DNA of 51,566 nucleotides. Origin: Nitrosopumilales archaeon. GTDB taxonomy: Archaea > Thermoproteota > Nitrososphaeria > Nitrososphaerales > Nitrosopumilaceae. The number at the start of each line of letters is the position of its first letter. Position 1 is the first letter of the stretch. The stretch spans positions 1 to 51,566 of the forward strand of contig JAEHKU010000005.1 of the NCBI GenBank assembly GCA_016838825.1. Direction: 5' to 3'. Both the position numbers and the translations under genes were made by a program. Shown here piece after piece: positions 27,635-33,503 of the stretch. Below the pieces are notes generated by a model. The model did no database searches. It was given only the letters and a program-made list of their open reading frames with translations, and had not been told where the DNA came from.

Positions 27635-28363
27635 TTACACTTTTTTTACTAATGGTTTATGAGGCTGGAATTTTTCCCACAGTAGACCCAAAATCAATGC
27701 GTTTGCAATCCAAAAGACAGTTACTGCTGTCACAGACATCACTCTAAATCCGTTTACTAGTTCCATTGGAGCTGTAATCTCGTCTGGATTTGGAGGCATT
27801 AGTACAAACACTATGCTAATGTAAACTGCAAAGCCGATAAAAGCAAAAATCTTTTTTCTATCTTGTAACTTTTTGTACACTCTGTAAAAGCCTACAGCAC
27901 CAAAGCCAGATAACGCAATAAATGAAAGATACAAAATTGCTCTAAGAACAACTGTATCAGGATCTCCAACTGTTGGAGGATTTGCAGGATACTTCAAAAA
28001 CGGAATTATGAATATAGTAAACCACATTAATCCTGCAAGAACTAGGGATTTCTTGACATGATTTTGCCCTGGCAGTACGTGCCTAGAATACGCAAAGACA
28101 ACTCCAAACAATGAACCTATTGAAAGTCCCAGTATTCCACCAGCTAAGACCTGACCGCCTTTCTGCCAAACTCTGTATGCGTTATACTCAGCCCAAAATA
28201 CAGGAGTATCTTTTTCTTCGCCAGAAGCAAAGAGATTTTGGTTTTCAATTCCTATAGCTTCGTCCAAGAACGGTTCTGTAGTAACAAAGTTAGCCAAACC
28301 ATGAATTGTTCCTGCAGAAAAACCAGAAACTAAAACAATTACGAAAAAGAGAGCAGCCTTCAT
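27635..28363 (-). CDS. cbtA: Cobalt transporter subunit CbtA
   Basis: A 242-residue membrane protein of the CbtA family, with about five to six hydrophobic segments. The first (AALFFVIVLVSGFSAGTIHG) is typical, and later segments include GGQVLAGGILGLSIGSLFG and LMWFTIFIIPFLKYPANPP. The PANPP and VGDPDT loops are family features. CbtAB are predicted cobalt uptake proteins found near B12 genes. It is 9 bases after cbtB. Confidence 0.88.
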   Translation of the reverse strand: MKAALFFVIVLVSGFSAGTIHGLANFVTTEPFLDEAIGIENQNLFASGEEKDTPVFWAEYNAYRVWQKGGQVLAGGILGLSIGSLFGVVFAYSRHVLPGQNHVKKSLVLAGLMWFTIFIIPFLKYPANPPTVGDPDTVVLRAILYLSFIALSGFGAVGFYRVYKKLQDRKKIFAFIGFAVYISIVFVLMPPNPDEITAPMELVNGFRVMSVTAVTVFWIANALILGLLWEKFQPHKPLVKKV

Positions 28364-28372
28364 ACATAAGCC

Positions 28373-28582
28373 CTAATGACAAGGAAAACCAGCAGCGTGT
28401 CTCATATCATGATATAACTCATGAAGATAGAGCGCATCGAATGCTTCTTCTCCAATAACAATGCTGAATAAATGTCCTTGATCAAAACCTACGATAAATA
28501 ACCCAAAACCAAATATTACAAGAAGAACAGCGATTACAAGTTTTGGAACTGATTGACTAGTAATAATTATAGATGAAGACAT
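28373..28582 (-). CDS. cbtB: Cobalt transporter subunit CbtB
   Basis: A 69-residue membrane protein with one transmembrane helix (VIAVLLVIFGFGLFIVGF) and a His-rich C-terminus (HELYHDMRHAAGFPCH) that resembles a metal-binding tail, typical for CbtB. It is translated before cbtA in one operon. The promoter has a TTATTTAAATC sequence about 29 bases upstream of the ATG. Confidence 0.88.
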   Translation of the reverse strand: MSSSIIITSQSVPKLVIAVLLVIFGFGLFIVGFDQGHLFSIVIGEEAFDALYLHELYHDMRHAAGFPCH

Positions 28583-28654: not shown

Positions 28655-29299
28655 ATGATTTTGAAAAAATATTATTTGGCAGCACCAATAATTGTTGCTG
28701 TAATTCTAGGAGTTTATGCACTAACTCCCAAAGTTTCCGATCTATCTGATGAAGTAACGAAACAGATGCTTATACAAGATGGCTCTCCAATGTTAGGAAA
28801 TCCTTCAGCAAGCATTACAATAGTAGAGTGGGGCGACTATCAATGTACTTTTTGTTATAAATTTCACATGACAAAACGTGAAATTATTATGAAGGAATAC
28901 ATAAGTACTGAAAAAGCCAATTTTGTTTTCAAGGACTTTCCATTAAATGGCCCAGATTCGGTTTTAGCAGCTGAGGCAAGTTATTGTGCTGATGATCAAG
29001 GAGAATATTGGGAATATCATGATATTTTGTATAATAACTGGGCCGGAGAACAAACTGGCTGGGTAAATAGAGACTCTTTACATCATTTCGCTCAAACTAT
29101 AGGACTCGATGTTGTACAATTCAATGAATGCCTAGATATGAAAAAATATGAAGCCAAAGTTCTTGCAAATGAGGAATTTGCACACCAAATTGGAATTAAT
29201 GCAACTCCATCATTTTTCATATTCAATGAAGAACAATTAGTCAAGATTCGTGGAAACCAGCCACTTGATGTTTTCTTTAGAGTACTAGACGAAATTTGA
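28655..29299 (+). CDS. Membrane-anchored DsbA-like thiol oxidoreductase
   Basis: A 214-residue protein with an N-terminal anchor (AAPIIVAVILGVYALTP, residues 9-25) and an extracytoplasmic thioredoxin-fold domain with inserted helices. The active site is C64-T-F-C67 in GDYQCTFCYKF, and the cis-Pro loop is ATPSFFIF. It likely forms or isomerises disulfides in exported proteins. The start ATG has GGAG about 8 bases upstream. It is divergent from cbtB, sharing the ATTTAAAT at 28607-28614. Confidence 0.88.
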   Translation: MILKKYYLAAPIIVAVILGVYALTPKVSDLSDEVTKQMLIQDGSPMLGNPSASITIVEWGDYQCTFCYKFHMTKREIIMKEYISTEKANFVFKDFPLNGPDSVLAAEASYCADDQGEYWEYHDILYNNWAGEQTGWVNRDSLHHFAQTIGLDVVQFNECLDMKKYEAKVLANEEFAHQIGINATPSFFIFNEEQLVKIRGNQPLDVFFRVLDEI

Positions 29300-29567: not shown

Positions 29568-30839
29568 ATGGCCAAATTTAAAATCCAAAAGCAAGACTCT
29601 GTCAAACTGTACAAGCTACGAAAAACGTTAGACGAATTATCTGATAAAACTGGGAGAGGGACAGAATTAATATCGCTTTACGTTCCGCCAAAAAAGGCAC
29701 TTTATGATGTGATAAATCAATTACAAAACGAACAAGGAACTGCTTCTAACATAAAATCGGATCTTACTAGAACCCACGTGTTGGATGCGCTAACTAGGGT
29801 CATACAGAAACTAAAATTATACAAAAAATCTCCAGAAAGAGGGCTCGTTATTTTTTGTGGTGCGCTACCTCCAGAAGGAGGAGGGGCACTAGGAAGTGAG
29901 GTTGTCAAAATCTATGAACTAGAACCCCCAAAGGAATTACAGACATTTCTTTACAGATGTGATGATCACTTTCACGTTGACATCTTAAAGGACATGCTCA
30001 AAGATGACAATCTCATCGGATTGCTAGCAATAGATACTAAAGATGCAGGATGGGGTCTTTTACATGGAGATAAGCTAGAAGTATTATCACAATCATCATC
30101 TGGAGTTGCAGGAAAACACAGACAAGGGGGACAGTCACAAAGAAGATTTGAAAGACTACGAGAAATGCAGCTTAATGAATATTTTAATCGAATTGCACAA
30201 ACAACTAGGGAATACTTTGTTGACATTTACAAAATAAAGGGGCTTATAGTAGCTGGTCCAGGTCCAACAAAAGAAGATTTTGTTAAAGATAATTATCTAG
30301 AGTACAGGCTCAAGGATATGATACTAGCAACCCTTGATTGTTCCTACGCAGGAGCCGAAGGCGTGCGGGAGGCTTTTGTAAAAGCAGAAGATGTCTTAGC
30401 AGATTTTAGAATGGTTGAAGAAAAAAAACTAATTGAAAAACTATTTTCGTTAATTAATAATCAAAGTGGTCTTGCTGTATACGGTCTTGATGATATTATC
30501 AAGCTTTTACAAAATAACGTAATTGAAACTTTAATCATAACTGATGATACAAATCTACATAGATTGGAAATAAAATGCAATAGGTGTCAACACGTGCGTT
30601 CTGAAATTCTAGAACGTCAAAAATTAATTCCAAGAAAAACCGAGCTGCTAAATGAACCATGTCCGGAATGTAAGAGTGCTGATCTGCAAAGTTCTGAACG
30701 TGATATTGTAGATTATCTTGCATTGTCGGCATCTGAAACTGGCACTAAAATTGAGGTAGTATCAGGAAAAGCAGAACATGGCGTGATGTTAGGAAGTATT
30801 GGCAAAGCAGGTGCGATACTTAGGTATAAGATAAAATAG
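29568..30839 (+). CDS. prf1: Peptide chain release factor aRF1
   Basis: aRF1 recognises all three stop codons and triggers peptide release. The 423-residue protein has the stop-codon motif NIKS (residues 61-64) and YxCxxxF (YRCDDHF), the catalytic GGQ (187-189, in GKHRQGGQSQRR), and the C-terminal zinc-like pairs CNRC and CPEC at about 350-385 in the minidomain. The length is normal for archaea. A TATA-like ACTTAATATTTAC precedes the start by about 33 bases. Confidence 0.97.
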   Translation: MAKFKIQKQDSVKLYKLRKTLDELSDKTGRGTELISLYVPPKKALYDVINQLQNEQGTASNIKSDLTRTHVLDALTRVIQKLKLYKKSPERGLVIFCGALPPEGGGALGSEVVKIYELEPPKELQTFLYRCDDHFHVDILKDMLKDDNLIGLLAIDTKDAGWGLLHGDKLEVLSQSSSGVAGKHRQGGQSQRRFERLREMQLNEYFNRIAQTTREYFVDIYKIKGLIVAGPGPTKEDFVKDNYLEYRLKDMILATLDCSYAGAEGVREAFVKAEDVLADFRMVEEKKLIEKLFSLINNQSGLAVYGLDDIIKLLQNNVIETLIITDDTNLHRLEIKCNRCQHVRSEILERQKLIPRKTELLNEPCPECKSADLQSSERDIVDYLALSASETGTKIEVVSGKAEHGVMLGSIGKAGAILRYKIK

Positions 30840-30911
30840 TTTTGTAAAATGTGATTATTCATTTTACCACCCGTAGTTAGATTCAATTAGATTTAATATT
30901 TCAGCAATGAT

Positions 30912-31025
30912 ATGGGTTTCAAAGAAAAAATTGTGATAATTCCAATTGCCATTTTTGCTATTATTATATTAACTTTAACTGTTTATGGTGTAGTATGCAA
31001 AAGTAGTCTAACTTCCTTCTGTTAA
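30912..31025 (+). CDS. 37-residue membrane microprotein
   Basis: A short frame with a basic start (MGFKEK), one hydrophobic helix (IVIIPIAIFAIIILTLTVYGV) and a short tail with two Cys (VCKSSLTSFC). The pattern resembles the other microproteins in this window. The start is an ATG, with no strong Shine-Dalgarno. Its function is unknown. Confidence 0.5.
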   Translation: MGFKEKIVIIPIAIFAIIILTLTVYGVVCKSSLTSFC

Positions 31026-31070
31026 CAATTGATAGTAATTGGTTGATGTTTACTATATAGGACATCCATT

Positions 31071-31178
31071 TTATTGTACAATGGTGACTATCTTTTCTCC
31101 ACTGTGCTCACAGCAAGAACATAAACCACACTGATCAGCATAGTAACATACACACAATTTACAATTGCAGATGTTCAT
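31071..31178 (-). CDS. 35-residue Cys-rich microprotein
   Basis: An ATG-started minus-strand frame encodes MNICNCKLCVCYYADQCGLC and 15 further residues. It has eight Cys in the first 23 residues (C4, C6, C9, C11, C17, C20, C22, C23), an arrangement suited to binding a metal cluster like metallothionein or a small zinc knuckle. A TGTCCA-N6-TGGACA inverted repeat lies about 42 bases upstream. It has no recognised family. The Cys density makes chance coding less likely, but this is only a short frame. Confidence 0.5.
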   Translation of the reverse strand: MNICNCKLCVCYYADQCGLCSCCEHSGEKIVTIVQ

Positions 31179-31219
31179 TTTACATCATTGAAATCATAAA
31201 TTAATTACTTTTAAGACAA

Positions 31220-31237
31220 TGTCCAAATTTGTGGACA
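31220..31237. promoter_or_regulatory. Inverted repeat TGTCCA-N6-TGGACA
   Basis: A perfect 6-bp inverted repeat with a 6-base spacer, about 42 bases upstream of the Cys-rich frame and 80 bases before the TATA of the RNA candidate. The spacing of half-sites is right for a dimeric regulator. Confidence 0.4.
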
Positions 31238-31315
31238 ATCAATTTAAGATTCTTCACCTCCTTTCTGTAATGAACTAGTTTTAGGATTTAGGAACGATTT
31301 GGAAAAATACCTTTA

Positions 31316-31325
31316 TTCTATAAAG
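31316..31325 (+). promoter_or_regulatory. TATA box before the 31340 RNA candidate
   Basis: TTCTATAAAG, centred about 20-25 bases upstream of the first base of the GC-rich element, matches an archaeal promoter position. Confidence 0.45.
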
Positions 31326-31339
31326 CAGATTTTTTTCTT

Positions 31340-31404
31340 GGCTCGATCGAAGTGGTCAGGTATTGTTTTCGTCAAGAGCTCCCGTCTCCCCCTGTGGTCG
31401 AGCC
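31340..31404 (+). ncRNA. Candidate small structured RNA, about 65 nt
   Basis: This GC-rich island in AT-rich DNA starts with GGCTCGA and ends with TCGAGCC, a perfect 7-bp terminal stem. Inside, CAGG (31357-31360) could pair with CCTG (31391-31394). A TATA box lies at the right distance upstream, and a T-rich stretch (TATCTTTTCATTTT) follows. It lacks a TTCRA T-loop, so it is not an ordinary tRNA, and it has no C/D boxes. It might be a single-hairpin guide RNA or an unclassified sRNA. It overlaps no gene; the plus strand is chosen because of the promoter. Confidence 0.45.
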
Positions 31405-31415
31405 AGAATATCTTT

Positions 31416-31763
31416 TCATTTTCCAATTAGTTCCAAGATTTTAAACGCGGTTTTAGAAAAATCAATTTCCTTTTCCGCTGTTACAAATAATACATCATCA
31501 TCAAGTGGGAAACTAAAAATTACGATATCCCTATATGACATTGAAAATTTCACTGGTCCTAATTCTTTGTCAAACTCACGGCGCATTCTAACTCTTAATG
31601 CAAGTTCCATGTATAGCATCTCATCTTTTTTAGTTTCTTCAAGCGCCTTTCTATCTTCCTTCATACCACCAGCAGTGAGATGGCCTTTGTTGTTTATTAT
31701 GCCGGCAAACCTAATCCTGGAATCAAGATTTTTAATTTTGTTGCATAAGTTTTCATAATCCAC
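31416..31763 (-). CDS. Roadblock-like family protein, subgroup A
   Basis: This 115-residue protein is a full-length subgroup A member: helix (DYENLCNKIKNL), strands (RIRFAGIINNKGHLTAGG), a long helix (MLYMELALRVRMRREFDKEL), GPVKFSMSYRD, IVIFSFPLDDDVLFVTAEKE, then the last helix (FSKTAFKILELIGK). The order fits Roadblock/LC7 proteins, which bind small GTPases or form scaffolds. The A subgroup motif R-F-A-G-I/L-I-x-x-x-G and S-x-x-x-x-x-x-V/L-x-x-F-P are shared with 36705-37115 and 37153-37536. The function is unknown. Confidence 0.7.
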   Translation of the reverse strand: MDYENLCNKIKNLDSRIRFAGIINNKGHLTAGGMKEDRKALEETKKDEMLYMELALRVRMRREFDKELGPVKFSMSYRDIVIFSFPLDDDVLFVTAEKEIDFSKTAFKILELIGK

Positions 31764-31864
31764 AGCAAAAGCACTTCCTTTCTGAGATTGCTGTATATTC
31801 TAATTTCAATAGAATACCTGTAACGGAGCGATCTATTTATTGAGATCTCTTCGGTGTTATTAGT

Positions 31865-32449
31865 ATGGCCTCAGAAGTAAATTACAATAAAGCTTTTGAA
31901 CATTACAAACACCTTTCCTTATTTTGGACAGATTTGATATATCTAATGGCCAGCAAGCCTCAGTCACTCACTGCAACTGGGCCTATGCGAAAATTTGCTA
32001 CTAACGCAAAAAAAGTTACGACAGAACTGATTGAATCTAATCAAGATCTAATTGAATTTAATACAAGACTAGCAGAATACTATAAACAATTATCAGATAC
32101 ATGGATAGAATCACAGAAACAAGTTAGTAAAAAAATGCCAGATATACCACAGGATGCAGAACAATTGGATTCATACAAACGAGTCTGGATAGATATATTT
32201 GAAAATTACTTTACTCAGTTATTTGATTCAAAAAAGTTTGGTGAAAATTATGGTAAACTAGTATCAAGTGAGCTCGAACTCTCAAAACACTGGAATGACA
32301 TGGTAAATACATTACTAGAATCTGCAGATTTACCAAGTAAAAAAGAGATTGACGAAATATACAAAGAGTTACAACAGTTACGCAGACGTGTTTCAAAATT
32401 AGAAAAAGAACCAGTAAAAAAAGTGGTAGAAAATACTAATGCAGAGTGA
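31865..32449 (+). CDS. phaE: Class III PHA synthase subunit PhaE
   Basis: The non-catalytic helical partner that activates PhaC. The 194-residue protein is helical throughout, with the segment ATGPMRKFATNAKKVTTELI and the C-terminal coiled coil KKEIDEIYKELQQLRRRVS typical of PhaE. It overlaps phaC by 11 bases. Archaeal PhaE proteins are shorter than bacterial ones, as here. Confidence 0.85.
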   Translation: MASEVNYNKAFEHYKHLSLFWTDLIYLMASKPQSLTATGPMRKFATNAKKVTTELIESNQDLIEFNTRLAEYYKQLSDTWIESQKQVSKKMPDIPQDAEQLDSYKRVWIDIFENYFTQLFDSKKFGENYGKLVSSELELSKHWNDMVNTLLESADLPSKKEIDEIYKELQQLRRRVSKLEKEPVKKVVENTNAE

Positions 32450-33503
32450 ATCAGGGATCAGCCCAAAAATTATTGAAGAGTTTTTAAAATTTAATCGAAA
32501 TATTATAGATGCACCAAACCACGTACCAGCACCTGACGAAATTAATTTGGGAATAACTCCACATGATGTGGTTTATACTGAAGATAATATTCGATTACTT
32601 CATTACAAACCATTAACACAAAAACAAGCTCAAATTCCCCTTGTAATTACATACGCAATTATCAATCGTTATCATATACTAGATATTCAACCTGAAAAAA
32701 GCTGGGTCAGAAATCTTTTACAGCAGGGAATTGATGTTTATATGCTTGATTGGGGAACCCCCTCAAATCTATACAAGTACCTTGGTTTTGATGATTATGT
32801 AAATGGATATCTAGATAACAGCTTGGATTTTGTACGTGATGAAGCTGGGGTTGAACAAGTTTCATTGCAGGGATATTGTACGGGTGGTACAATTGCAACA
32901 ATTTATTCTTCGCTACACCCAGAAAAGATCAAAAATCTAGTTATGACTGCTCCTGTCATTGATGGTTGGCGTGATACTACTGTTGTAAGTAATCTAACGA
33001 AGCATATTGATGTGGATAAAATGGTCGATACTATTGGCAATGTGCCTCCAGAATTCATGTACTATTGTTTCTCTCTTCTCAAGCCGTTCGAGCAGGGAGT
33101 CGACAAATACATTAACTTTTTCAGAAATATAGATAATCAAAAATTTGTAGATAGCTTTTTGCGCATAGAAAAATGGGTTAGTGATACCCCGCCAATTCCA
33201 GGCGAGCTTTTTAGACAATGGGTTAAAGATATTTACCAAGAAAATCTTCTCATACAAAATAAAATGTACGTAGGAGGGCGGCAAGTTTCTCTGGAAAACA
33301 TAACTATGCCAATATTCACACAGGTAGCAGTTGGTGATCATCTCGTTTCTCCGGAATGTAGTATGCCTTTACACTATTCAGTTGCGAGTGAAGATAAAAC
33401 CTTGAGAGTATACCCAAGTGGTCACGTTGGAATGATTGCTAGTTCATTTTCACAAAAAAAGATTCTCCCAGAACTTGGTAAATGGTTAATTGAGAGATCT
33501 TGA
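32439..33503 (+). CDS. phaC: Class III PHA synthase catalytic subunit PhaC
   Basis: Polymerises 3-hydroxyacyl-CoA to polyhydroxyalkanoate. The 354-residue protein has the lipase-like box GYCTGG with the catalytic Cys147, Asp300 (VAVGDHLVSPECS) and His329 (YPSGHVGMI), which lie within two residues of the class III enzyme triad. The fold is alpha/beta hydrolase without a signal. It shares a message with phaE. PHA would serve as carbon store. Confidence 0.95.
   Translation: MQSESGISPKIIEEFLKFNRNIIDAPNHVPAPDEINLGITPHDVVYTEDNIRLLHYKPLTQKQAQIPLVITYAIINRYHILDIQPEKSWVRNLLQQGIDVYMLDWGTPSNLYKYLGFDDYVNGYLDNSLDFVRDEAGVEQVSLQGYCTGGTIATIYSSLHPEKIKNLVMTAPVIDGWRDTTVVSNLTKHIDVDKMVDTIGNVPPEFMYYCFSLLKPFEQGVDKYINFFRNIDNQKFVDSFLRIEKWVSDTPPIPGELFRQWVKDIYQENLLIQNKMYVGGRQVSLENITMPIFTQVAVGDHLVSPECSMPLHYSVASEDKTLRVYPSGHVGMIASSFSQKKILPELGKWLIERS

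Follow-up and report, generated by a model that had tools for sequence, protein, structure and literature searches.

A cysteine-dense 35-residue reading frame in a Nitrosopumilales archaeon: a candidate lineage-restricted metal-binding microprotein

Does a very short, cysteine-dense open reading frame (ORF) in the genome of a Nitrosopumilales archaeon encode a metal-binding peptide, and would such a peptide be new for these organisms? To our knowledge no genetically encoded metallothionein is known in ammonia-oxidising archaea, and the part of the literature that we searched reports none in this group. The ORF occupies positions 31071..31178 on the minus strand of the 51,566-nucleotide stretch of DNA that we analysed (the window), which belongs to a 1.12-Mb assembly of 68 contigs that is 93% complete. 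The Cys-rich frame of 35 residues that a sequence-only reading had described was confirmed: it begins with ATG, encodes 35 amino acids (MNICNCKLCVCYYADQCGLCSCCEHSGEKIVTIVQ) and contains eight Cys, all within residues 4-23 (at 4, 6, 9, 11, 17, 20, 22 and 23). These are arranged as CxCxxCxC-x5-CxxCxCC, the CxCxxCxC cluster covering residues 4-11 (CNCKLCVC) and the CxxCxCC cluster residues 17-23. The start codon is well constrained because an in-frame stop sits 2 codons 5' of the ATG.

The ORF lies in a 576-bp gene-free interval bordered by the aRF1 gene (29568-30839, plus strand) and a DUF6659 gene (PF20364; 31416..31763, minus strand), the latter sharing the ORF's strand and lying next to it on the upstream side; phaE and phaC come after the DUF6659 gene. 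Directly after the aRF1 gene, and convergent with the microprotein ORF, is a hydrophobic 37-residue ORF resembling a one-helix membrane protein (30912..31025, plus strand). A DsbA-like gene (28655-29299) is found about 2 kb away, and the closest metal-related genes, cbtAB (27635-28582), are some 2.5 kb off, with the DsbA-like and aRF1 genes intervening. Within AT-rich DNA just past the DUF6659 stop there is a GC-rich hairpin (31339-31404) with a 9-bp closing stem (GGCTCGATC...GGTCGAGCC), which folds better than its shuffles (z -3.1 on the plus strand, -1.9 on the minus strand). ARAGORN found no tRNA at 31340-31404 and Rfam gave only a sub-threshold chance match there; no Rfam family matched the interval above threshold.

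Whether such a concentration of Cys could arise by chance was assessed by shuffling at several scales. Dinucleotide shuffles of the 576-bp interval never produced eight Cys in 23 residues (0/8000, with seven Cys reached once), and shuffles of positions 31040-31240 did so in 3/8000. When the TG-rich ORF was shuffled alone and no start codon was required, 8/8000, or about 1/1000, reached that density. When 52 kb of this genome's gene-free DNA was shuffled 150 times, ORFs of such density appeared at 0.007 per round (1/150), while the real ORFs with at least six Cys in 23 residues numbered three against 0.15 expected in this sample. At the genome scale, surveyed in a 400-kb sample of stretches from this genome, the 35-aa ORF ranked first in Cys density among 2599 ATG-started ORFs between 20 and 80 aa long in 451 kb, and the next-ranked ORFs include one conserved microprotein, described below. 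These observations indicate that the Cys richness of the ORF exceeds chance expectation. Gene-free DNA of this genome also contains two short Cys-rich ORFs on the minus strand, MNQYECTCSCGCTNLTDDYVCHTCKIGMCKVGMKRD (L153:15747-15857) and MHKIKCSECGCAENCEHECCEDRAKSK (L156:17614-17697), neither of which matches Pfam.

The DNA upstream of the ORF was less informative. An inverted repeat resembling an operator, TGTCCA-N6-TGGACA, is indeed present at 31220..31237, centred some 51 bp before the ATG, and had been taken as a sign of metal or redox regulation. The window, however, contains 24 inverted repeats built alike (6-bp arms around a 6-bp spacer), seven of them with arms of at least three G/C, and a comparable repeat occurs in 22% of random 100-bp segments (5% if the arms are GC-rich), so that its geometry is at chance level. 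The whole genome holds a single exact copy of it, which speaks against its being the operator of a regulon. In Nitrososphaera viennensis, copper limitation is associated with the motif TTCSGSMTTTGWACYANT at -35 to -70 (PMC7785015); its best match upstream of the ORF carries six mismatches, as is typical of random segments. Regulation by metal or redox through this repeat thus found no support. The repeat was additionally marked, on the minus strand, as a weak stem resembling a terminator. Between it and the ATG, an A/T-rich stretch with TTAATTTATGA (31179..31205, minus strand) could weakly suggest a TATA region giving a short-leader transcript. Compared with gene upstreams, the promoter score of the upstream DNA ranks at the 63rd percentile, and compared with random genomic segments at the 91st; this middling value is average for a gene and is compatible with a promoter but is not evidence of one.

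We next turn to conservation. No homologue of the 35-aa peptide was recovered from 151 relatives and 250 genomes of the same family, all of other genera, nor from relatives at the level of the order, and neither plasmid and phage records nor Pfam, NCBIfam or PDB sequences yielded a useful match. The weak BLAST matches that did appear were rejected, their translations being out of frame, interrupted or inside other proteins. At the DNA level the interval matched family genomes over short stretches only. The gene order DUF6659-phaE-phaC is common to many relatives (those with PhaE, found by name, being Nitrosotalea, Nitrosopumilus and other Thaumarchaeota MAGs), aRF1 was not found to adjoin it within the flank examined, and none of 26 related loci in which DUF6659 adjoins phaE had a comparable ATG-started Cys-rich frame. 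Within the region 29568-33503, the break in synteny seems to fall inside the interval that holds the ORF. A genome-wide search for the CxCxxCxC motif returned 13 places, of which the translated forward-strand ones were short or out of frame, and no paralogue was among them.

While the peptide itself stands alone, other Cys-rich microproteins are encoded in these archaea. The most widespread is a 47-aa, 9-Cys microprotein (MVDQACGCEADSGDPTYKCDCEMQAACICSADCTCASKVCKEAVSAL) on contig 3 of the source genome (G000:C3:6562-6705, minus strand, L141), with the motif M(V/T)DQACGCEADSGDP..CDC and no Pfam match. It is kept in 52 of the 91 relatives (L252-L271 among the loci), which cover most genera of the family, and in none outside it. 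In at least one relative (L262) it makes up the C-terminal part of a longer, membrane-like protein of about 460 aa. Like the 35-aa ORF it is small and Cys-rich, with a metallothionein-like composition, and is found in the same genome; unlike that ORF it is conserved across the family, and the two have no sequence similarity to each other. It is a candidate thaumarchaeal metallothionein.

A second family emerged from a search of 250 genomes for the Cys spacing CxCxxCxC, gap, CxxCxC. Nearly all matches in the family and order were repeats of Ala codons or of other low complexity, and those in G040 and G028 lay within longer frames with no obvious small gene. Of the non-repetitive matches, only those in G007 and G050 pointed to a conserved microprotein family with an ATG start (MSYCYYCNCDCYPCCCSVEFCEKCKCINT...), whose third member, in G065, came from a profile search. 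The members (L202, L203 and L204; G050:C25, G007:C145 and G065:C39) represent three genera of the same family as the source, are about 41-46 aa long and share the consensus MS.C.YCNCDCYPCCC.V.FCEKCKCINT. In the closest pair, third codon positions hold 10 of the 11 changes, a pattern of substitution of the coding type. The genes occupy three unrelated neighbourhoods, pointing to a patchy and possibly mobile distribution. The family resembles the 35-aa ORF in having CxCxxCxC followed by CxxCxC, with a gap of four residues rather than five, but this shared spacing is weak evidence of descent because spacing was the search pattern. Beyond the Cys the two cannot be aligned (hhalign probability 0.4%), their neighbourhoods differ, and the profile of the family (A1) matched nothing in the source genome, the 35-aa ORF included. 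Since the family changes mostly at third codon positions in related genera, it does suggest that real proteins here use the CxCxxCxC...CxxCxC arrangement. Overall, the expectation that such a peptide would be new for these archaea fails as to its kind, given the 47-aa microprotein and this second family; the 35-aa peptide, a lineage-restricted orphan that is probably real, is new as a sequence.

What, then, might the ORF be? Our tentative preference, held at somewhat below even confidence, is a real lineage-restricted microprotein that would fold around metal through its two Cys clusters. Soft metal ions, for example Zn(II) or Cu(I), would be bound there in thiolate clusters; like a metallothionein, the peptide would buffer or scavenge metal. 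How the Cys are arranged, how few other residues there are and the fact that these archaea encode further Cys-rich microproteins all point this way, most simply to a metal buffer; the transcription and translation of the ORF, metal binding, the identity of the metal and buffering rather than signalling are inferred. The earlier description of the peptide as metal-binding-like thus holds for its composition and its rarity under shuffling, with metal binding itself an extrapolation from these. An AlphaFold model built without an alignment was of low confidence (pLDDT 66, pTM 0.26), and is uninformative for a peptide folded by metal. Counting against this reading are the lack of homologues, the absence of the frame at syntenic loci, the middling promoter and the distance of metal genes. 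The same lack of conservation, together with the position at a synteny break, would fit an untranslated frame that opened by chance in an interval rich in TG and devoid of genes. Other Cys-rich frames do arise in these genomes, both in antisense and in gene-free DNA, and the rarity of the ORF drops to about 1/1000 once local composition is kept; set against this are the shuffles of the interval and of the genome sample, the ATG start and the promoter-like upstream region, and we regard a chance frame as rather unlikely.

A somewhat less probable alternative is a structural zinc-binding micro-protein, similar to a zinc finger, that would serve protein or nucleic-acid contacts and not metal buffering. 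It is common for archaeal micro-proteins containing Cys pairs to bind zinc and to influence stress, biofilm or transcription (PMC6562870, PMC11241148, PMC2253796), but the spacing here, C-x-C plus an adjacent CC, lacks the C(P)XCG motif, and few residues remain beyond the Cys region for an interaction surface. Eight Cys and a DsbA-like gene in the vicinity might instead bring to mind a secreted or RiPP-like peptide that is modified or carries disulphide bonds; such a product is very improbable, as the ORF has neither a signal sequence nor adjoining maturation genes, and the tight CxC and CC spacings favour metal over disulphides. We give equally little credence to the interval acting as RNA, in which the 3' region of DUF6659, with the hairpin and the terminator-like repeat as terminator, would make the ORF incidental: the hairpin does fold better than its shuffles, but the ORF region does not (z +0.5), and Rfam is silent above threshold.

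If peptides of this sort buffer metal, they would supply a missing part of the metal handling of ammonia-oxidising archaea, which depend on copper enzymes. It is conceivable, though we consider it doubtful, that Nitrosopumilus-like archaea, having no bacterial-type metallothionein, buffer metal through several unrelated and fast-turning-over Cys-rich microproteins, with the 35-aa ORF a lineage-specific member beside the 47-aa core member. The weight of the 35-aa ORF is modest because the claim rests on one genome, and the conserved 47-aa microprotein is the better target.

Among known systems, the bacterial metallothioneins SmtA/BmtA (PF02069, Metallothio_Pro) are likewise very small and Cys-rich and open with a CxCxxCxC module, which in SmtA and its kind serves as the N-terminal signature. 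SmtA also has a central zinc-finger part and a C-terminal Cys/His part, whereas the 35-aa ORF is shorter and has neither. It carries the N-terminal cluster and lies below the curated cut-off of the profile, without a match even at E<=10; that cut-off was reached in 0/200 genomes of the class, the source genome included, while a Synechococcus control was positive. As judged from its sequence, then, the ORF belongs to no metallothionein family among those compared. The haloarchaeal zinc-finger micro-proteins (HVO_2753, HVO_0758, Brz) share with it an archaeal origin, a length below 70 aa and Cys pairs, and many bind zinc, but the C(P)XCG motif, two copies of which define them, does not occur in the ORF. 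The copper storage protein Csp (NVIE_028200) of Nitrososphaera viennensis is also Cys-rich and thaumarchaeal, and has been proposed as a holder of Cu(I) (PMC7785015); it differs from the 35-aa ORF in being a much longer protein with 18 Cys (15% of its residues) and in being upregulated under copper limitation.
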